Of a stretch of 36,190 nt of DNA, positions 24,726 to 36,190 are shown one piece after another. The position numbers and the translations under genes are program-made. The DNA is from Candidatus Uhrbacteria bacterium (GTDB lineage: Bacteria > Patescibacteriota > Patescibacteriia > JACRJV01), in assembly GCA_016215325.1 (NCBI GenBank), contig JACRJV010000003.1, forward strand, positions 1-36,190, written 5' to 3'. Each line of letters opens with the position of its first letter. Positions within the stretch are counted from its first letter, which is position 1. The notes under the pieces were generated by a model. The model did not search any database. It was not told where the DNA came from and saw nothing but the letters and a program-made list of their open reading frames with translations.

Positions 24726-25496
24726 TTAATAGTGGAGGACGCGCTCAAGAATGCGTTGCTGGCAAGTGTCGCTTGCCAAAACCCGCTCCACCAGCGCTAC
24801 TTCCTGCGCCTCATTAACAGAAGGGTAGCTCATCGTAATGGGTATGGATTGCAATTCGACTCCGTTTTCGATGATGCGCGACTGCTCAATAAATTCGGCA
24901 TGCTCAAAAGGCGCCTCCGGCATCTGCGTAAATTTCAAAAGAAAATCACGTCGGAAGGCAATAAGACCGAAGATCTTTCTTACAAAACTCTGTTGTTCTA
25001 TAAACGAACTCCTTAAACACGGCGATCTCCGACAACAGAACAGAATGCGCCCTTGGGGGTTGATAATGCACTTTACGATCGAACGATCTTCAAGATCCGC
25101 TTCCGCTGTTACAGGGCCCACAGCGTTCCAGGCAACAATCTCAGGATTCCCGCGTATCGCTTCTGCGCATGCCACTATTGTGTCCGGTAGTAGCAGCGGC
25201 TCGTCAGCTTGCAATACAATGACATGCGTACAATCAAGTGAGCGTACGGCTTCGGCGACGCGATCCGTTCCGGTCTTATGTGCGTTTGAAGTCATGATCA
25301 CTGGACCACCAGCGCCCTTGACAACGTTGGCGATTTCCTGATCAAAAGTGGCGACATACACAGCATCAAGTACACCAGACAGGAGTGCCCGGCGCCGAAC
25401 GTGTTCAACCATCGACAACCCACAAAAAGGGTACAAGACCTTCCGAGGGAATCGAACGGATGCGAGATGCGCGGGGATGACACCAACAATCTTCAT
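24726..25496 (-). CDS. KdsB/CMP-acid-sugar cytidylyltransferase-like
   Basis: MKIVGVIPAHLASVRFPRKVLYPFCGLSMVEHV; VYVATFDQEIANVV; KTGTDRVAEA; VLQADEPLL; GLIAFRRDFLLKF...PFEHAEFIEQSRIIENG. M at 25496 preferred over 25529. Confidence 0.85.
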   Translation of the reverse strand: MKIVGVIPAHLASVRFPRKVLYPFCGLSMVEHVRRRALLSGVLDAVYVATFDQEIANVVKGAGGPVIMTSNAHKTGTDRVAEAVRSLDCTHVIVLQADEPLLLPDTIVACAEAIRGNPEIVAWNAVGPVTAEADLEDRSIVKCIINPQGRILFCCRRSPCLRSSFIEQQSFVRKIFGLIAFRRDFLLKFTQMPEAPFEHAEFIEQSRIIENGVELQSIPITMSYPSVNEAQEVALVERVLASDTCQQRILERVLHY

Positions 25497-25503
25497 AATT
25501 TGA

Positions 25504-26676
25504 TTAAAGAGGAGAACTCTGTACAACATTCAAAAAATCAACAAGTTCTTCCGTACTTTTTTGCCAAGTGTATTGGGCCGCGGTCGCTGGCCCTGCGAGC
25601 GAAAGACGTTTGCGCATCTCGCGATCTTCGATGAGCTTTTGCACGTTGTTCACCATTGCCGGAACATCACTAGGATCAGACACTAGACAATTGCGCTCAT
25701 GAACTGCGTACTCTACTACACCAGAAACGGCGGTGGTCGCGAGGGCACAGCCGGATGCCATTGCCTCCAACGGCGGTGCTGGAAAGCCGTCGCGCAGACT
25801 TGGATAGATAACAATGTCAGCATGTTGATACGCCATTGCATAGTCGTTTCCCAAAAGGTACCCAAGGTTTTCGTCAAAAAGAGACGCATACTCTTCTTTG
25901 ACTTGTCCGAGAGAGATTAACACCATCCGTGACCGATCGTAGCACTCTCGGAGCAGACGGACGACCGCACAACCAGAATCCTGCCCTTTGGCCTCATGCA
26001 TCGCACAGAACAGCATCACCCGTACCGGATCGTATTGACCACACAATCGTGACGGAGCTGTAAACTCCTCCAAATTGACTCCCAACCGAATTACACGCTG
26101 TACGGGTATCCCTATCGCCTCTGCGCCCTCTTTCGCACCCAAGGATACCGCAAAACGAGGAATATTGGTTGCCCTCTCAATTGACACCATGTGTGAAGAC
26201 CAGTCCCGAGCAATCGTATCTTTATCATTCAGCATCGCCTGATAATCCATCGCAACGCCATTCACTATTCTCCCCTTCGCGTCGGGCAATTGCAGAAGAT
26301 GTGGGATTAAATAATTCTGTACAACAACTATAATATCAGCATCAGGCATATTTTGGCTCGAGGGGAGTCGCCAAAAACGGTTCTGTATAACTGTAGGATG
26401 CATTGTATGTAGTATTGCTCCTTGCCAGCCAAAACCCCTAACCGTGATCACTGTTTTTATTATTGAATGGAGAGCATATCCCAACAGTAAAAATAGTCGA
26501 AAAATGGACGCTACGGCACGGACACGCCAAGCCAGATGATCCCAAAAACTTATAATGGGATAAGAGACTGTGACTAATAATCCTGACGAGGAAAAATGAT
26601 TAGCGTATTCTGCGACCAATCGAGTAAGACTCCCAGGACTGTTCGCGGCTAAAACGAAATTCACTCTTTTTATCAT
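25504..26676 (-). CDS. Glycosyltransferase family 4
   Basis: YQHADIVIYPSLRDGFPAPPLEAMASGCALATTAVSGVVEYAVHERNCLVSDPSDVPAM. Confidence 0.9.
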   Translation of the reverse strand: MIKRVNFVLAANSPGSLTRLVAEYANHFSSSGLLVTVSYPIISFWDHLAWRVRAVASIFRLFLLLGYALHSIIKTVITVRGFGWQGAILHTMHPTVIQNRFWRLPSSQNMPDADIIVVVQNYLIPHLLQLPDAKGRIVNGVAMDYQAMLNDKDTIARDWSSHMVSIERATNIPRFAVSLGAKEGAEAIGIPVQRVIRLGVNLEEFTAPSRLCGQYDPVRVMLFCAMHEAKGQDSGCAVVRLLRECYDRSRMVLISLGQVKEEYASLFDENLGYLLGNDYAMAYQHADIVIYPSLRDGFPAPPLEAMASGCALATTAVSGVVEYAVHERNCLVSDPSDVPAMVNNVQKLIEDREMRKRLSLAGPATAAQYTWQKSTEELVDFLNVVQSSPL

Positions 26677-26682
26677 AATCGC

Positions 26683-27429
26683 CTACTGCGGGAAAACACC
26701 GCAATCAACATTCAAGCACTGTCCAGTGATCGCAGATGCCTGCGGCGAAGCGAGAAACACGCAAACAGCCCCGACCTCTTGAGCGGTTGGTAGCCGGCCC
26801 AACGCCGCATTCGCTTGAGTAAAGGCCGCAAAAAATTGTCCAACGTCCTTCCCTTTAGTTGGAGACTGTTCATCTTGGAGGGCTTCCATAAGACCTGGTG
26901 TATGTATGAGCACCGGACACACCGCATTGACGCGGATTCCTCGGCTACCCAACTCCTTTGCGAGTGATTGAGTAATTCCATTCACGCCAAACTTCGTAGC
27001 ACAATACAATGAATTATTTGCACTCCCCCGTTTTCCGGCAATACTCGAAACATTAATTATGGAACCACCGCTCGGTAGCACCGACGCCGCGGCCTGACAG
27101 CCCCAGAGTGTTCCCATGAGGTTTGTCTGGATCATTTGATTGGAGACCTCTTCGTTAATACAATCAATCGATCGCCACCGAGAGAATCCTGCACAATTCA
27201 CATAGACATCGACTCGCCCCGTCCAATTCAGCGCAGTCTTCACAAGTGCATGATGGTCGCTGCGCTGGGTCACATCCATAGGACAAAACCGAACCATTGC
27301 ACCCAACGAAACTTCAAGTCTGGTGTCTGTACGTGCACCCACCAGTACCTGATACCCCGCGGCAAGAAACTCCCGGACAATCCCCTCACCAATCCCACGA
27401 TTTCCGCCAGTAACAACAACCGTTGACAT
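26683..27429 (-). CDS. Classical SDR oxidoreductase
   Basis: VVVTGGNRGIGEGIVREFL; YVNCAGFS; YCATKFGVNGITQSLAKELGSRGIRVNAVCP; C-terminal GQCLNVDCGVFPQ. Confidence 0.93.
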   Translation of the reverse strand: MSTVVVTGGNRGIGEGIVREFLAAGYQVLVGARTDTRLEVSLGAMVRFCPMDVTQRSDHHALVKTALNWTGRVDVYVNCAGFSRWRSIDCINEEVSNQMIQTNLMGTLWGCQAAASVLPSGGSIINVSSIAGKRGSANNSLYCATKFGVNGITQSLAKELGSRGIRVNAVCPVLIHTPGLMEALQDEQSPTKGKDVGQFFAAFTQANAALGRLPTAQEVGAVCVFLASPQASAITGQCLNVDCGVFPQ

Positions 27430-27433
27430 AGTC

Positions 27434-28210
27434 CTATATCGTCATGCATGAAAACCCTCCATCCACGGCAATTTCAGCGCCTGTTACAAAGGATGCCGCA
27501 TCGGAAGCAAGCCATATCACTGCACCGACGAGTTCTTCTGGCTCTCCATATCGGCCCATGGGCGTATGCCCTAAAATAGCCGCTCCGCGCTCGGGGGTGA
27601 TAAAATTCTTCCGGTTCCATTCTGTCGGGAAAAAACCAGGTCTCAATGCATTCACCCGCACCCCTTTCGTGGCCCATTCTCGAGCAATATTCTGGGTGAG
27701 ATTTTTAATTCCCGCTTTCGCAACGGAATAGGCAAATGCTTTGGACAATGGTGGACCGGAGGATGCCGAAGAAATATTAATAATCGATCCTTTGCCCTGT
27801 TTGAACATTTGTCCTCCAAATACCTGACAGCCGAATAATGTGCCTTTCACGTGCACGGCCAGAATGGCATCCCATTCTGCTTCTCGGATCTCTAACAACG
27901 GCGTTGGCGCATTAATTCCAGCACCATTGATCAAAATATCGACGCGCCCATACCGATCAAGAATTTTTTTTAACGCTTCTTGCCAATCATTTTTTTTTGT
28001 CACGTCAATGGCGCAATAGGAGGCACTGCCACCATTGTGCTGAATATCGTTGGTCACTTGAGAAGCTGCTTCCTCGGTGCGATCCAAAATCATCACATGG
28101 CACCCCATTGACCCAAGGGCTCGAGCCATTGTTCCACACAAGAGGCCACCGCCTCCAGTAATCGCGACAACGCGCCCTCTTACGTCAAATAATTTATCAA
28201 TAGAACTCAT
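27434..28210 (-). CDS. Classical SDR oxidoreductase
   Basis: VVAITGGGGLLCGTMARALG; ILINGAGINAPTPL; YSVAKAGIKNLTQNIAREWATKGVRVNALRPGFFPT; VDGGFSCMTI. M at 28210 overlaps the HAD stop at 28207. Confidence 0.92.
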   Translation of the reverse strand: MSSIDKLFDVRGRVVAITGGGGLLCGTMARALGSMGCHVMILDRTEEAASQVTNDIQHNGGSASYCAIDVTKKNDWQEALKKILDRYGRVDILINGAGINAPTPLLEIREAEWDAILAVHVKGTLFGCQVFGGQMFKQGKGSIINISSASSGPPLSKAFAYSVAKAGIKNLTQNIAREWATKGVRVNALRPGFFPTEWNRKNFITPERGAAILGHTPMGRYGEPEELVGAVIWLASDAASFVTGAEIAVDGGFSCMTI

Positions 28211-28857
28211 ACAAACGTATATCTTGAACAAAGATACTTTTTGATGCCAACCATATCCCCAAACCGAGCGAATGTCCCATTGGTCGCAAATCGGCCGCTA
28301 TCACGGCCAATAAATTCTATGCCAACCCCCCGAGCGGCCCGATAATCATCCTCAGTATCTCCAATGGATACCCACGAACCGGATTGCTGGTGATATTTCT
28401 TGAGTATATCCTGAAACGCCTCTGGTTTAGTCCATGGACTTGTATAGATGTCACTGAAATACTGCCGGATCCCTCGCGCGACGATTATTATTTCAAAATA
28501 CTCTCTTGGGTTGACGGTAACAATAATGAGAGCTACTCTATTCGAAAAAAAATCTAAAAATTCTTGAGTCCCCACAACAAATGGGCACACCACTATTGCA
28601 TCGAATACCAATGCGGTGTAGGCACTGTCCAGTTTCGCTTCCATCTCGGGCGTATATTCCTCTCCAAGAACCTGTTCAGTCACATAACGAAACTTTTCAT
28701 ATCGATTCTGGTGTTCATGGGCGAGATGGTATTCCATAACAGTGCCCACAATCGATGGACCGTAGTCCTTGAAAAGATCCTGCCAACCCTGATCTTTGAT
28801 ATGAGCAGATTCAAGAATCGTACCATCAAAGTCAAGAATAATTCCCTGCAATTTCAC
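28207..28857 (-). CDS. HAD-superfamily phosphatase
   Basis: IILDFDGTILES (motif I), VTVN (motif II), SWVSIGDTEDDYRAARGVGIEFIGRD (motif IV). Confidence 0.88.
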   Translation of the reverse strand: MKLQGIILDFDGTILESAHIKDQGWQDLFKDYGPSIVGTVMEYHLAHEHQNRYEKFRYVTEQVLGEEYTPEMEAKLDSAYTALVFDAIVVCPFVVGTQEFLDFFSNRVALIIVTVNPREYFEIIIVARGIRQYFSDIYTSPWTKPEAFQDILKKYHQQSGSWVSIGDTEDDYRAARGVGIEFIGRDSGRFATNGTFARFGDMVGIKKYLCSRYTFV

Positions 28858-28892
28858 AGCCCCGGCATCATAACAAACACCCGCACAAACTC

Positions 28893-29678
28893 CTACCGAT
28901 GTTCTTTAATAAGCTCCTTCATTACAGCACTCCACTGCCACAACACAAACAAATCAGAACTCAAAATAATAAATGTATACCCCGCTGCAAAAGCCTCATC
29001 AATCTTTTGCCGGTCAACCGCCGCAATCTGTGTTCCGCAGGATTTTTTATATCTTGCACAGGCCTCAACCACCGTGTGTGCCGCCTCGCGCACGAGGAGA
29101 TGATCGGGCTGTCCAGGAACCCCCAAGGATCCGGAAAGGTCATACGGACCGATCATCACACCATCAACTTCTTCAAATTGAAGAAGTTGGTCGATATTTT
29201 CTACGCCCTCTACTGTTTCAATCTGAATGATAAACGGCGAGCTCTCATTCCAACCAGAAACGTATGCATCAAAATAAAAACCATACCCATGAGCACGGGC
29301 GACTCCAAAACTCCGGCGGCCCGCGGGTGGGAATTTTAAAAGATTCACCAATCGACGCAATTCTTCGGGTGTTGAAACCATCGGCGCAATCAGTCCATCG
29401 GCGCCAGAGTCTAACATGGGTTTTATCATTTCAATGCCATGAGAAACGGGTCGCGGCAAGCATGGTACGCCTAGAGATTGTGAACTCACAATAATTTGCT
29501 GCGCGTCAAACAAACCCATAGTGCTGTGCTCCATGTCGATAGCCATAAAATCAACGCCCGATCGGGCGATGATTTCGGTGATCGAAGGATGGCCAAACGA
29601 TGTCCATCCGCCGAACAATCTTGCACGGCCCCGTAATTGCTGCTTCAATGATCGACGCGTAGTATGGAGATTACTCAT
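28893..29678 (-). CDS. HpcH/HpaI-family class II aldolase
   Basis: GWTSFGHPSITEIIARSGVDFMAIDMEHSTMGLFDAQQ; LDSGADGLIAPMVSTPEELRRLV; IIQIETVEGVENID; VDGVMIGPYDLSGSLGVPGQ. Confidence 0.92.
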   Translation of the reverse strand: MSNLHTTRRSLKQQLRGRARLFGGWTSFGHPSITEIIARSGVDFMAIDMEHSTMGLFDAQQIIVSSQSLGVPCLPRPVSHGIEMIKPMLDSGADGLIAPMVSTPEELRRLVNLLKFPPAGRRSFGVARAHGYGFYFDAYVSGWNESSPFIIQIETVEGVENIDQLLQFEEVDGVMIGPYDLSGSLGVPGQPDHLLVREAAHTVVEACARYKKSCGTQIAAVDRQKIDEAFAAGYTFIILSSDLFVLWQWSAVMKELIKEHR

Positions 29679-29681
29679 ACC

Positions 29682-30563
29682 TTACCGTGCAGAATAATTT
29701 TCAATTTCCATCAAAGGAACCTCTCGGACAAGATCATAGACCATCTTTGCCTGACGCAAAATTTCTTTCACATACCGAAGGTGAATTTGCGTCGCCGGAT
29801 CGGACAATGCCCGATCGGGTTCGTCATGAATTTCCATAAATAACGCATTCGCTCCAGCGGCCATGGCCGCACGAACCAAGGCCGGAATAAACTCTCGTTG
29901 GCCCCCGCTCATTGTCCCCAAAGCGCTCGGCATCTGGATACTGTGCGTCGCGTCGTAGCAGACGGGGTAGCCTGTTTCTTTCATAATCTGGAGGCACCGC
30001 ATATCGGATACCAGCATATTGTAGCCAAAAAATGTTCCCCGATCGGTCAGAAGAATATTCTGATTTCCGGTCGACGCAACTTTCTGTGCGCTGTTGCGCA
30101 TATTCCAGGGGCTCATAAACTGCCCCTTCTTAATATGGATGGCCCGACCCGTCTTCCCAGCAGCTTTCAAAAGATGCGTTTGCCGACAAAGATATGCGGG
30201 GATCTGAATAAAATCAACGACCTTGGCGGTCGCTTCCATCCATTCAACGTTGCTGACGTCACAGTTGACCGGCACCCCATGCACTTCTCTCACGCGTTGA
30301 AGTACTTGCAACCCCTCTTCGACTCCCAAGCCATGAAATGAAGTACTCGAACTACGGCAATCTTTATCATAACAAGACTTGTAAATAAATTGTACGCCCA
30401 AAGATTCGGTGACCGCCTTGAGCTCCTTGGCGATAAATAACGCGTGCTCTTCTGATTCAATGGCACAAGGGCCTCCAATGAGCGTCAGCGGCTGATGTTC
30501 TCCAATGGTTACTTTCGCCACGTCTCCCCCGCCGATTGTAATATCTTTTACAAGACTCACCAT
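29682..30563 (-). CDS. kdsA: KdsA-like 3-deoxy-ulosonate-8-phosphate synthase (metal-dependent type, altered A5P-binding motif)
   Basis: LIGGPCAIESEEHAL; KSCYDKDCRSSSTSFHGLGVEEGL; DFIQIPAYLCRQTHLL; YDATHSIQMP; SGGQREFIPALVRAAMAAGANALFMEIHDEPDRALSDPATQ. Confidence 0.88.
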   Translation of the reverse strand: MVSLVKDITIGGGDVAKVTIGEHQPLTLIGGPCAIESEEHALFIAKELKAVTESLGVQFIYKSCYDKDCRSSSTSFHGLGVEEGLQVLQRVREVHGVPVNCDVSNVEWMEATAKVVDFIQIPAYLCRQTHLLKAAGKTGRAIHIKKGQFMSPWNMRNSAQKVASTGNQNILLTDRGTFFGYNMLVSDMRCLQIMKETGYPVCYDATHSIQMPSALGTMSGGQREFIPALVRAAMAAGANALFMEIHDEPDRALSDPATQIHLRYVKEILRQAKMVYDLVREVPLMEIENYSAR

Positions 30564-30569
30564 ACTTCT

Positions 30570-30977
30570 TTACGTTGACGGAATTAATGCTTTTAAGAGA
30601 CGGTGAAGGTGAACCAATCCCAATAATCGATTGCTACCATCAATGACGGGCAGAACCCAACATTGATACTTTTCAAACATCGCCAATCCTTCTTGAAGTG
30701 TGGCCTCCGGCCGAATCTTTTTTGGGGCCTTGGAACCAACTTCTCTCGCCGGAGTCATAAAGAGGTGCGGGAGGGGTTTTTGCGTGCTGAGTATCAGGCG
30801 TCGGATATCGCCATCGGTCACTAACCCAGCCAGAAACTCGCCGCACATGACACACACCGCCCCCAACCCTTTCCGGTTCATCTCATCCAAAACATCACGA
30901 AGACAATCATCCTCGTTCACCATAGGACGTTCAGTGCCCGTAGCCATAATCTCCTTAATCAGCATACCCCAATTCAT
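30570..30977 (-). CDS. Stand-alone CBS-domain pair resembling the C-terminal half of KdsD/KpsF
   Basis: 135 aa; IMATGTERPMVNEDDCLRDVLDEMNRKGLGAVCVMCGEFLAGLVTDGDIRRLI...VLPVIDGSNRLLGLVHLHRLLKA. No SIS domain in this ORF or its neighbours. Confidence 0.85.
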   Translation of the reverse strand: MNWGMLIKEIMATGTERPMVNEDDCLRDVLDEMNRKGLGAVCVMCGEFLAGLVTDGDIRRLILSTQKPLPHLFMTPAREVGSKAPKKIRPEATLQEGLAMFEKYQCWVLPVIDGSNRLLGLVHLHRLLKALIPST

Positions 30978-30980
30978 TAA

Positions 30981-32810
30981 TTACAGAAAAACACACATCC
31001 GTTGTTCATCGACGGGTAAAAAATAATTCTTGATGTATTCAGACGCGGCCAGGTATTCCCGTTCAACGATCTCCGACGGAAGGCAACACAATTCATTAAT
31101 CGCAGCGCCAAGATCATTATGATACGTTACCGTTCGTTTGAGCGCAGGACATTGAAATAAGGGGTCAAACGAAAGCATCGAGCCATTGTCATAGTACACG
31201 AGACGTTTACCTACCGTCAAGGATTCGAGAGCCACAGTACTCCCCCAATAGACCACAACATCAGACCACTCAATGTCTTCTGTGAGACTCCTGCACCGAG
31301 ATATTTCAACATTTCCTATCGTTCGCGGATTTACGATTAGATAACGTCGGATTGCATCTAGTGGGAGAACAGGATGAGCGCGGATACGAATGGCATACTG
31401 GGCCTTGCCAGAGAGTTGATGCAAAACTAAATTAACCATTTTATAGACCTCAATAATCCCCTCCATCGCAACCAACACATGATACGGATCGTGCGGCGCG
31501 TTCACCCGCTCTACATTCGGCTGAAACGCAGCTAATCGTAATGCGCATCCGGATCGAATCATTAATTCGGGATATCGCCCATAGTGCTGTAAAAGGTCTT
31601 TTGGTATCTCTCCAGTGGTTATGATCCGATCTGGAAGAAACCCTTGGTCATGCTCTTGAGTTCTAGTAAATAGATTTGCTGATGCTTGAGGAACGACATT
31701 TTGTTGATAGCCAATGATCTGCGTCGTAGAAGAATCCTGGCGCAACGCTGAGATACACATCCGCTCCCAGGGATTATTTTCGTAGGTGTAATAGAGAGCC
31801 GAAATCGGAGGACACACGCGTACGAGTCGAAGCATGGCGTCAAAATGTAATACATTAATGAGTTCAATACCATTCACTGTCTTAATGAGTTCATTGTTAA
31901 TGATTGATTGGATATCATACCCAAAAAACTTGACGGGCCTACGAATATGGAGTTGTAAAAAAAGTAATTTTATACCGGCATAGAAAATTTCATGCATTGT
32001 TATCATCTGTTCAAGTGGGATAATCAAAGTATTGGTTATTTTTTTTATGCGTTCAAGGCATCGACGATAGGGGCCGAGAATCGTTCCAAAGACGATCACG
32101 GATCTGGACTGTTGTAAAAGTGGGAGAAGAGACCCGAAAAACACATCACAATATCCATCGGTGCGGAATGAGTGTTCAAGAATAAAGGATTTCAGAATGA
32201 AATGAAGTGTTTGATCTTGAGATATTGTAGTCTTCCGTACGGGTCCTAATATCCAACGCGCTTGACAGACTCGAACAACCACTCGAACCATCTGAACAAC
32301 CACGGAGGCACGATAATAACACTGGCCATAAAGTACGTCACTGAGTTTACGAAACACAAAAGAGGGACAACTAAACGCCACATCTTCCTTAACGACAACT
32401 TGTTCCAATGCCCTAAGAATAGTCCATGAAGGATTAACGATGATGAGGTGATCAAACTCCAATGTTCGTAGCAGCTCCATGATTGTATAAAGCTGCTGAA
32501 GCGCGGAAGGGATAGGCGATGCAAAACGGTTTTTAGAAGCAATATAGGTCGACCACCATAGTCGACTCCCGCGTTGCTGTCTATTACATTCATCAATCGC
32601 ACCCAAATACTCATTTAAAAATTTTCCCGATCGATCCTCGTCACGAGCAACTTCTGGTGCAGGCGTCCATCCGGATTGTACAAGCTTCTCCTGGAGCGCT
32701 GGGGCCGCTTGCTGGAATACGACAAAAAAACGCCGTTGACGTATAGGATCTAAACAAGAAAGTACTCTATTAATTTGCCGTACGCTGAATACGACATCAA
32801 TTGTTTTCAT
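30981..32810 (-). CDS. Surface-carbohydrate biosynthesis protein, probable GT-B fold
   Basis: 609 aa; C-terminal IRIRAHPVLPLDAIRRYL...DIEWSDVVVYWGSTVALESLTVGKRLVYYDNG resembles CDP-glycerol/capsule-type transferases. Confidence 0.6.
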   Translation of the reverse strand: MKTIDVVFSVRQINRVLSCLDPIRQRRFFVVFQQAAPALQEKLVQSGWTPAPEVARDEDRSGKFLNEYLGAIDECNRQQRGSRLWWSTYIASKNRFASPIPSALQQLYTIMELLRTLEFDHLIIVNPSWTILRALEQVVVKEDVAFSCPSFVFRKLSDVLYGQCYYRASVVVQMVRVVVRVCQARWILGPVRKTTISQDQTLHFILKSFILEHSFRTDGYCDVFFGSLLPLLQQSRSVIVFGTILGPYRRCLERIKKITNTLIIPLEQMITMHEIFYAGIKLLFLQLHIRRPVKFFGYDIQSIINNELIKTVNGIELINVLHFDAMLRLVRVCPPISALYYTYENNPWERMCISALRQDSSTTQIIGYQQNVVPQASANLFTRTQEHDQGFLPDRIITTGEIPKDLLQHYGRYPELMIRSGCALRLAAFQPNVERVNAPHDPYHVLVAMEGIIEVYKMVNLVLHQLSGKAQYAIRIRAHPVLPLDAIRRYLIVNPRTIGNVEISRCRSLTEDIEWSDVVVYWGSTVALESLTVGKRLVYYDNGSMLSFDPLFQCPALKRTVTYHNDLGAAINELCCLPSEIVEREYLAASEYIKNYFLPVDEQRMCVFL

Positions 32811-34294
32811 ACATTCACACTCTTCGATCCGCCAGTAGTCACTAGTCGTAAGCCCATGATCATAGATTTGAAACTTTGGTAGTTTTCACCCGTCAGGATT
32901 CGGAAACGAACTCCAAAATACCCGTACATTACAAGAATAGTAATTTTATACAAAAAACGGATTAGATACCCCGCGTGGATCCACCGCAATATAAGCAGCC
33001 CTAGAACCAAGGCCGAAAGCAGTGCAATAAAGATGACTATTTTTCTGTATTCCCACCCGATTCGATATGCGCGTTGCGAGACATAAAACGAAATCGTAAT
33101 CGAAATACCTCCAGAGACAAGTGTTCCCCACGCAGCACCCAACATGCCGAATTTGATAATTAACGGAATTGTAATTGCGATAGTAAGACCAATACTTAGA
33201 AATGTAAGCAGAGAAATGGTTAATGTTTTTTTGGCAAACAAAAGTTGTGGTTGTTTACCAAAAAACATGATCGCATAGTACAGCGAGAGGATAAGAACAA
33301 CATCGGCTGCACCTCGATACGCCGGGGCGAGAAGTAGCCAGGTCATTTCCTCCGCGAAAATCCCAACCAACAGGGCCATAAACATAGAAAGGTACGCAAA
33401 AGGGGTGAGATACCGGCCCACCGCCTCTTTGCCGAGCTCGCCTAAATTGAACATTCTTTGATATACCTGCGGTGCGTACACATTTTGGATTGCGGTCATA
33501 CATGTGAATACGACATTCGCGATTTTCTGTCCGATGCTGTAGACACCAACCCCGCCAACCGAATCAAGAAATCGAAGCATATACTTATCGGCCTGATTAC
33601 CGACCACTCCCACAAAAAACCGCGGAGTTAAAGGATAACTCAATTTCAACACTTCTTTTAATATCCCCCAATCCAATGTGGGCGGTAATTCTTTTACAAA
33701 TCGCGTGGTGACAATAAGAAAAACCACTAGACCGGCAATAGCTTGGCCCCACACGATACCAGTAATACCAAACCCCAAACCGACGACAAGTAGGAGCGCG
33801 ATCACAGCGGAAAGCACGATCTCGTCAATCGTATACCAAACAAATTTCTTCGCGTTCTCGGTGTTTTTATAATAAGTGAGATAATACGCTTTTAAACTCG
33901 TAATCCCATTCGCACAAAATGCTAAAAAAAGAAGTGGACCATATGCCGCAGACCCAGTAACCCACTGTGCGAGAACACCTCGAAAAAAATATGTAACGCT
34001 GGCGAGAAATGTAAATAATACAGTAGTAAACAATAACGTTGAGTAAAGAAGTGCGGCAATCCTTTTGATGTCATGGTGTTCAAAATAATTGCGCTCGTAG
34101 ATAATCGGCATACCAAAACTAGCCACTCCTCCCATAAATATGGCATACGCTTGAACGAGCGCCAACACGCCATACTCCTCGCGGGAAATAAAACGAGTAA
34201 ATACCGGCAAGGTCACAAACGCAACAACATTCCCGGCCACGACAGCAAACAAATACACTAGGCTATTTTTTAATTGTCGTTCGCGAGATGCCAT
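32807..34294 (-). CDS. wzx: Wzx-like polysaccharide flippase (MATE/MOP superfamily)
   Basis: NSLVYLFAVVAGNVVAFVTLPVFTRFISREEYGVLALVQAYAIFMGGVASFGM; about 12-14 TM. Confidence 0.92.
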   Translation of the reverse strand: MASRERQLKNSLVYLFAVVAGNVVAFVTLPVFTRFISREEYGVLALVQAYAIFMGGVASFGMPIIYERNYFEHHDIKRIAALLYSTLLFTTVLFTFLASVTYFFRGVLAQWVTGSAAYGPLLFLAFCANGITSLKAYYLTYYKNTENAKKFVWYTIDEIVLSAVIALLLVVGLGFGITGIVWGQAIAGLVVFLIVTTRFVKELPPTLDWGILKEVLKLSYPLTPRFFVGVVGNQADKYMLRFLDSVGGVGVYSIGQKIANVVFTCMTAIQNVYAPQVYQRMFNLGELGKEAVGRYLTPFAYLSMFMALLVGIFAEEMTWLLLAPAYRGAADVVLILSLYYAIMFFGKQPQLLFAKKTLTISLLTFLSIGLTIAITIPLIIKFGMLGAAWGTLVSGGISITISFYVSQRAYRIGWEYRKIVIFIALLSALVLGLLILRWIHAGYLIRFLYKITILVMYGYFGVRFRILTGENYQSFKSMIMGLRLVTTGGSKSVNV

Positions 34295-34300
34295 AGAGCG

Positions 34301-36190
34301 CTACAATGGACGGTGCAACAACGCTCGAAACCGTTCGATCGCTTTTCCATCTCGATACGGATCAGAGAGCGGTGAATCAATGGACAGAGGGTTGCGATAC
34401 TCTCTGTCCTTGGGGGCCAAAAAATCACGTACCCGAGCCTCAAGCTCTCCAAGACCATGGGTCGTCAACCCTGCAATAGTGGCATATGGGGTGTCACGAT
34501 AATATCCCATGGGGTCATGCCAAATCGCTGGGCGATTCACGCTCAGCGCCTCAAACGTTGGAGATGTGAATGCAATAGAGAGCACAAGGTCTGAAGTTGA
34601 AATGAGCTGCGCACCATCAACGGAAGAAGGGTACACGGTAATACGGGGATGTGCTGACAAACGTTCGTAGCATTCCAGGAGCTTTTTTCCGAGTACGGGA
34701 TCAAACGTCTTTTCCGAACCTCTGGATTTTTTTTCTTTTATAATCACTGCGACCTCTGGATATGATTTAACTAATTGAAGTAGATGCTGCGCAAATGCGA
34801 ACCCCTCACGATAGGACGGCGTCCCATGGGGAGCATACGTGGAATCAAAAGCGGTAATCACAAAATATTTTTGATCCCTAAAATATGCAATCTTTGGTAA
34901 ACTAGCGCCACTGTTGTTTTTCTCCTGGATATTTGCACTCCAAAGACAACCCACTACATGTACTGATTTTAATTGCGACGGGTGCTGTGCATAAAATTCA
35001 GCAATAAAATCGTCCCATGTCACAAAATGATCGTAAGAAAGATACGTCCAATAGGGATGCCGCATACGGCAATCGGGAACTGTCCCAAGGAGATTGCCCC
35101 CAATATACATAGAATCCGTGTAGTACCACGTCGATATTCCGGCTTGCGAAAGGGCGATATTGCGGGGGATATGATTGATCCCAAAATCTGAATGCGTGAT
35201 AAAATGTTTGATTTGAATCTCTTGTGCGATATCTTGCCATAAAAAATAATGATAGAGCGCGCGCCACGCTATGCCCCATTCACGAGAATGATGTAAAAAA
35301 AATCCTCGACCGCCAACACAAAGAAGCAACAGCCACTGCAATGGCCGGGAGAACAATGTCTGCCTCCGCGAATACTCATGCACCGCGCCAGAGATATTTT
35401 TTAATTTGGCCACCTCAGAGCGTGGTATGCGGGCAAGTGGCAGATACACCACTTCATGAGGAAAAATCAAAGATCCGTCAATAATGAAATCAGGGCCTCT
35501 TCTATTTTTTCTCAATTGATGCGCGCCAATGATCGCAACGCCATATTTGTACATTCGTTTTTTTGGTTGATGGATGATTGTCTGGTACACCCACAGCGGA
35601 AAACTTACAAGTGTGCTCGTGATACAATGCCCGATTATTAACACCGTTCTCTTACCACCCCTGATCGTATTATCAAAAACCCCGGCAAGATATGCGGAGA
35701 TGGAGAAATGAATGGACGGGTGCTCCACGAGCTGCACCCCTGCCGCGACAATCAACTTCTTTAAAAAAAGATATTGTGGAATGTTGAAGTCGGGATAAAA
35801 TACGATGTGTTTCCCAGCGAACCGTTCGCTTAATTTATTCAGCAGTATATTCGCTGAATAAAACTCCGCTAAACGTTCACAAAGGTACTTTTTAAACACC
35901 GTTTCCGCTGATGATGTGCCAAGCGCATGATCCAGATGATCCACGATTGCTGAAATTTTCTTTCGATAGAATGGGAACACTCTTTCAACTTGTTCCACCG
36001 CAGTGTCGCCCGCAACGCGATATATTCTCTGGAATTCTCCTTCCGCTAAGGAAAGTGTTTGTACGGTACCGCTCTGGCGATAGGTAGACACATAGTCCGG
36101 TACTACTGAAAAAAAATATCGTCTCTTGTGGTACGCAGAAAATGCCTCCAGAACATAAACACGTTTATGTTGCCAAAGGAACCGAATGAT
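34301..36190 (-). CDS. Polysaccharide biosynthesis protein (PFTS-motif-like, GT-B-like); 5' end lies beyond the window
   Basis: C-terminal AVIIKEKKSRG...LISTSDLVLSIAFTSPTFEALSVNRPAIWHDP. The track's GTG start (36091) is not the true start: the frame stays open to 36190 (IIRFLWQHKRVYVLEAFSAYHKRRYFFSVVPDYVSTY...). Confidence 0.7.
   Translation of the reverse strand: MIRFLWQHKRVYVLEAFSAYHKRRYFFSVVPDYVSTYRQSGTVQTLSLAEGEFQRIYRVAGDTAVEQVERVFPFYRKKISAIVDHLDHALGTSSAETVFKKYLCERLAEFYSANILLNKLSERFAGKHIVFYPDFNIPQYLFLKKLIVAAGVQLVEHPSIHFSISAYLAGVFDNTIRGGKRTVLIIGHCITSTLVSFPLWVYQTIIHQPKKRMYKYGVAIIGAHQLRKNRRGPDFIIDGSLIFPHEVVYLPLARIPRSEVAKLKNISGAVHEYSRRQTLFSRPLQWLLLLCVGGRGFFLHHSREWGIAWRALYHYFLWQDIAQEIQIKHFITHSDFGINHIPRNIALSQAGISTWYYTDSMYIGGNLLGTVPDCRMRHPYWTYLSYDHFVTWDDFIAEFYAQHPSQLKSVHVVGCLWSANIQEKNNSGASLPKIAYFRDQKYFVITAFDSTYAPHGTPSYREGFAFAQHLLQLVKSYPEVAVIIKEKKSRGSEKTFDPVLGKKLLECYERLSAHPRITVYPSSVDGAQLISTSDLVLSIAFTSPTFEALSVNRPAIWHDPMGYYRDTPYATIAGLTTHGLGELEARVRDFLAPKDREYRNPLSIDSPLSDPYRDGKAIERFRALLHRPL

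Follow-up and report, generated by a model that had tools for sequence, protein, structure and literature searches.

A stand-alone CBS pair of KdsD type beside a divergent KdsA paralogue in a polysaccharide island of a Candidatus Uhrbacteria bacterium

What does the CBS pair of arabinose 5-phosphate isomerase (KdsD) do where the isomerase domain is missing? The question is raised by a complete open reading frame of 135 aa with an ATG start (30570..30977, minus strand) in the window, i.e. the whole stretch of 36,190 nucleotides analysed here. The first-pass annotation had described it as the CBS-CBS half of KdsD without a preceding SIS domain, adjoining kdsA, and had proposed either an SIS isomerase encoded elsewhere and regulated in trans or a free sensor for the KdsA step. 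The adjoining gene of the KdsA family was located at 29682..30563 (minus strand), separated by a 6-nt gap. It encodes a PEP-condensing enzyme of the metal type (GPCAIES) with KDCRSS in place of the canonical KANR(S/T)S; this protein and its counterparts in other genomes are called variant KdsA below.

Two CBS stretches were detected in the 135-aa frame with Pfam (57.9 bits, E 1.3e-15), and the KdsD/KpsF models of NCBIfam covered it over their CBS part only (KdsD positions 205-325 of 328). The top sequence matches in the PDB were the CBS tails of KdsD in 4o9k, 3fna and 3k2v. An alignment of 65 family proteins was used as input to an AlphaFold2 model (mean pLDDT 94.6), which was nearest in the PDB to the KdsD tails in 4o9k and 3k2v and then to that in 3fna (rmsd 1.2-1.9 A). 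The motif TDGDIRR was found at residues 54-60, a family-specific insert with QKP at 66-68 and GLVHLH at 120-125. QKP, W107, P110 and HxH are all present, and V takes the place of the family residue D108, as it does in the CBS protein of locus L029, to which the window is most closely related. Models, profiles, motifs and structure agree that the frame contains a CBS pair of KdsD type, as first described. Neither space for an SIS domain nor a remnant of one was found 5' of it, and the upstream frame is unrelated to SIS. This frame (30981..32810, minus strand), noted earlier as an unrelated GT-like protein, encodes a surface carbohydrate protein resembling TIGR04326 (below cut-off), probably a glycosyltransferase. 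It ends 3 bases before the CBS start in one frame (TAA TTA ATG). At 30975-30985, TAA TTA alone parts the two frames, and read-through would join both proteins.

The first-pass annotation had named closer similarity to nucleotidyltransferase-associated CBS pairs as evidence against kinship with KdsD. The window protein scored 85.6 bits with the KdsD profile versus 36.0 bits with the profile of NTP-transferase-linked CBS pairs, and for 77/77 free CBS proteins the KdsD-CBS profile gave higher scores than the NTP-transferase-linked and the generic stand-alone profiles. In a tree of 86 CBS proteins (137 columns, unrooted, many inner forks unresolved), four groups were cleanly separated, the free CBS branch with support of 100/93 and the KdsD tails with 95/84; the branch of the window protein, which is not fused to a nucleotidyltransferase, is separate from the NTP-linked pairs. 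This supported grouping of the free CBS proteins indicates that the family is old and distinct from KdsD, and is not a recently cut tail. With KdsD/KpsF/GutQ (4o9k, 3k2v, 3fna) it shares the CBS-pair fold, TDGDxRR, HxH and the context of a Kdo-type pathway; unlike these enzymes, it has no SIS domain, and its constant partner is variant KdsA, not an isomerase. An insert of roughly three residues with QKP also sets it apart from KdsD, and W107, D108, P110 and C42 are conserved in the free family only. The nucleotidyltransferase-fused pairs have a first motif of the TDGDIRR type but lack HxH, which is also missing in generic CBS pairs. TDGDxRR and HxH occur together only in free CBS proteins (HxH, residues 123/125, in 99%) and in KdsD (75%). 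As these pocket motifs are unusual, their presence in both families suggests ligands of one class, and 4o9k is presumably the structure that was solved with CMP-Kdo. In a literature search, neither a pairing of CBS with KdsA nor the entries 4O9K, 3K2V and 3FNA were found mentioned.

A direct scan of contigs with the window CBS protein gave no matches; related loci were obtained with its KdsA neighbour as query. The 80 loci are the best matches to this query and thus a biased, phylogenetically linked sample. After exclusion of locus L031, the sequence of which stops right after kdsA, a CBS-only gene was present at 78 of the 79 evaluable loci, counting as positive two with visible but incomplete CBS sequence (L091, contig end; L096, apparently frameshifted). 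It lies directly against kdsA in 77, usually overlapping it, at a conserved spacing of mostly -7 to +7 nt as measured to the domain start. Only locus L073 had variant KdsA and no CBS gene. By record titles, 53 loci belong to Pseudomonadota (41 to Alphaproteobacteria), nine each to Cyanobacteriota and Bacteroidota, and a few each to Myxococcota, Nitrospirota, Thermodesulfobacteriota, Balneolota, Spirochaetota and Verrucomicrobiota, so that the carriers span at least eight phyla. The same CBS-only frame is therefore found beside kdsA at related loci, as the first-pass annotation had asked, and is no truncation restricted to one genome. That a KdsD gene was truncated recently in the host and is now functionless has in its favour the missing SIS domain and nothing else. 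The frame is intact, carries the family motifs and has no SIS remnant; the stand-alone form recurs at 78/79 loci in at least eight phyla, and the tree parts it from KdsD tails. Recent truncation is refuted by this comparison and retains next to no probability. Judged by sequence, the window frame is no broken enzyme but belongs to an old and widespread family of stand-alone CBS pairs. The tie of this family to a KdsA paralogue is strongly supported.

Because the left neighbour of the CBS gene is variant KdsA in 76/77 loci and the right neighbour is variable, the functional partner is likely to be variant KdsA, rather than KdsB or the aldolase described below. This pairing is based on gene adjacency, which differs from physical contact. 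The order of the two genes in the window is the reverse of that in most loci. A KdsB gene follows next after CBS in 20/77 loci, the order is CBS, KdsB, variant KdsA in L029, and a minimal set of variant KdsA, CBS and KdsB, with or without KdsC, was found in many loci. In L104 (3367-10016), a canonical KdsA-KdsB-KdsD set and a set of variant KdsA, CBS and KdsB stand side by side, less than 7 kb apart. In a search of 385 genomes from the class to which G381 belongs, only the centre genome had the free CBS form, all other matches scoring in the KdsD range, and no fusion of variant KdsA with CBS was recognised, a few long frames aside. The free CBS family was not represented among viral contigs, where the matches were mostly full-length KdsD (SIS and CBS), besides one of NTP type and some partial ones. 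Free CBS was likewise not among the annotated plasmid matches listed, which consisted of KpsF/GutQ isomerases and a single CBS protein of generic type.

Variant KdsA of the window scored above the cut-off for KDO8P synthase (TIGR01362, 344.7 versus 314), and it retains the residues that we take to be the PEP- and metal-binding sites; in both respects it resembles the metal-dependent canonical form. It differs at fixed positions: S57C, A61D, N62C/S/G, H97S and F117Y (positions after an E. coli sequence that served for numbering only). In the alignment, C57, D61, C/S/G at position 62, S97 and Y117 were present in 80/80 variant proteins, which accordingly read KDCRS or, more generally, KD(C/S/G)RS where canonical KdsA has KANR(S/T). 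Of 28 canonical paralogues encoded by genomes that also carry variant KdsA, 26 were matched by the pattern DKANR(S/T), and the alignment has A and N at the two positions in every one. A branch with SH-aLRT 100 parts the two types, and no free CBS gene was found in the flanks of roughly 1.4 kb around these 28 canonical genes. N62, H97 and F117 presumably line the aldose pocket of KDO8P synthase, with N62 near the C2 hydroxyl. Changes at these three positions make an altered aldose substrate of variant KdsA likely. Ribose 5-phosphate, the C2 epimer, would be the simplest candidate, though a speculative one. Asn and Arg, apparently those of the KANR(S/T) motif, contact bisphosphate inhibitors (PMC6650799).

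Variant KdsA might instead make ordinary Kdo-8-phosphate from arabinose 5-phosphate, supplied by a KdsD that escaped detection or by an isomerase not recognised as such, with the CBS protein as feedback sensor for CMP-Kdo. The score above the KDO8P synthase cut-off, enzymes of the KdsB and KdsC families among the neighbours, and KdsD in most genomes with variant KdsA are consistent with this. Against it, all 80 variant proteins are changed at KANR(S/T), where A and N are invariant in the 28 canonical paralogues, and also carry H97S and F117Y; in addition, the window genome and G388 have GlmS-like SIS proteins only. We regard this explanation as unlikely. The occurrence of KdsD was compared in 38 genomes, the KdsA type being assigned from score and locus, with the motif read in all but a few genomes. 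KdsD was found in 27/30 genomes with both KdsA types versus 2/8 with variant KdsA only (Fisher p 0.0007, which ignores relatedness; two partial or low-scoring KdsD hits were counted as present). In G388, the SIS hits were two domains of a single 651-aa frame of GlmS size, as in the window genome; G391 and G398 had weak SIS hits only, and G389 several other SIS proteins. The correlation is suggestive only, because many of the genomes are incomplete MAGs or SAGs, ancestry is shared, and KdsD went undetected in three genomes with canonical KdsA (G387, G397, G416).

The host genome (1.14 Mb, 27 contigs, 92.6% complete) lies within the range of 0.5-2.0 Mb of the genomes sampled from its phylum. Loss of ribosomal protein L30 is a typical trait of the Candidate Phyla Radiation; the protein was absent in 92/96 sampled genomes of this phylum and found in 13/14 controls, so that the host probably belongs to Patescibacteria. 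A search of the whole genome for SIS proteins gave only a single frame of 623 aa with two SIS domains, an architecture like that of GlmS. The proposed isomerase acting in trans thus found no counterpart, and KdsD is likely, not proven, to be truly missing at this completeness. The proposed free sensor for the KdsA step fared better and is plausible. Since the substrate pocket of the neighbouring KdsA paralogue is changed, the step concerned is probably not that of the ordinary Kdo pathway. No KdsA above the family cut-off was found in the other sampled genomes of the host's class (381) or phylum (380; the samples overlap). Another genome of the class, G073, encodes a divergent KdsA-like protein (locus L012, 1438-2304; 220 bits, motif DKSQRTS), and no CBS match was found beside it in 3.8 kb.

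All further genes assigned in the window are also on the minus strand. Next to variant KdsA, an HpcH/HpaI-type aldolase (28893..29678, Pfam; companion in 44/80 related loci) is followed by a HAD phosphatase (28207..28857, Pfam and NCBIfam), a candidate replacement of KdsC, and by two short-chain dehydrogenases assigned with NCBIfam (27434..28231, in 44/80 loci; 26683..27429, in 36/80). A cytidylyltransferase of the KdsB family is encoded at 24726..25529 (204 bits with NF009905, below its cut-off of 255; 196 bits with NF003952, above its cut-off of 193), and a KdsB-like companion was present in 64/80 loci. The aldolase, both dehydrogenases and the KdsB-type enzyme (24726-29678) recur together in many related loci and are sometimes found away from the pair of variant KdsA and CBS (L079), as if they were a second sugar module. 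In the window, this set with its second KdsB type may modify or parallel the product. Genes for a family of proteins weakly similar to NanM sugar O-methyltransferases often separate the CBS gene from the aldolase gene (L065, 9294-10244, and 11 other loci). On the other side, a Wzx-type polysaccharide flippase (32807..34294, Pfam) and a PFTS-motif polysaccharide biosynthesis protein (34301..36091, TIGR04417, above cut-off) follow the TIGR04326-like gene.

The window is part of a polysaccharide island of lower GC (0.48) at one end of the 109-kb contig C26, the far end of which fits the other contigs of the bin (tetranucleotide r mostly 0.86-0.93). Contamination of the bin is disfavoured, as this combination fits an acquired island. 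Horizontal acquisition of the island is the simplest reading, and a chimeric contig C26 is kept in view as an alternative. The island goes on at about 37.7-48.2 kb of C26 (locus L109, 1683-12161) with an FkbH protein, a LegC/PseC-like aminotransferase and a frame of 680 aa that contains a 4-hydroxy-2-oxovalerate aldolase domain; elsewhere on C26 (L193, 6777-17084) one open frame of 3435 aa was found. Neither LpxC nor the N-terminal domain of WaaA was matched in the host genome, and the bacterium appears to make no lipopolysaccharide. With these two undetected, the product of the pathway probably goes to a surface glycan rather than to lipid A.

Taken together, we propose, with a probability of roughly 0.6, a Kdo-like pathway in which variant KdsA would use an aldose phosphate that is independent of KdsD and the KdsD-type CBS pair would be a separate feedback sensor. 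Variant KdsA would join PEP to this aldose phosphate, ribose 5-phosphate being the simplest candidate, and its product would be converted by the HAD/KdsC-type phosphatase and the KdsB-type enzyme to a CMP-ulosonic acid destined for a surface glycan. The CBS protein, with pocket motifs like those of the KdsD tail, would bind the CMP-sugar and regulate variant KdsA in trans. The ordinary pathway has this kind of sensor as a part of the isomerase KdsD; in the host, KdsD would be absent and the sensor would stand alone beside the first committed enzyme. The role of the CBS protein as feedback sensor for the CMP-sugar is moderately supported, and the sugar itself is speculative; ligand, contact between the two proteins, direction of regulation and substrate are inferred. 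Adenosyl nucleotides are common ligands of CBS pairs, and a KdsB gene directly after CBS in 20/77 loci would also suit a structural subunit; the protein could hence sense AMP/ATP, or be a subunit of the variant KdsA or KdsB enzyme, apart from any product feedback. KdsD-like pocket motifs (TDGDxRR with HxH), in which it differs from generic CBS pairs, and KdsD tails as nearest structures render this improbable. A more specific version of the proposed Kdo-like pathway is offered tentatively, at somewhat less than even odds: variant KdsA acting on another aldose phosphate (e.g. ribose 5-phosphate to 3-deoxy-D-altro-octulosonate 8-phosphate), with free CBS as a separate allosteric subunit sensing the resulting CMP-sugar, would form a relative of the Kdo pathway that works without an isomerase, is undescribed and was moved horizontally into a bacterium without lipid A.

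The findings suggest that many KdsA annotations in surface-polysaccharide loci of marine and environmental origin refer to a distinct enzyme, recognisable by KDCRS and a CBS neighbour; prediction of Kdo from kdsA alone may for this reason mislead. The locus would be a natural example of a regulatory domain that forms part of one pathway enzyme in the classical route and here acts as a protein of its own next to a different one; it would also be a possible origin, open to testing, of an unknown CMP-activated sugar.
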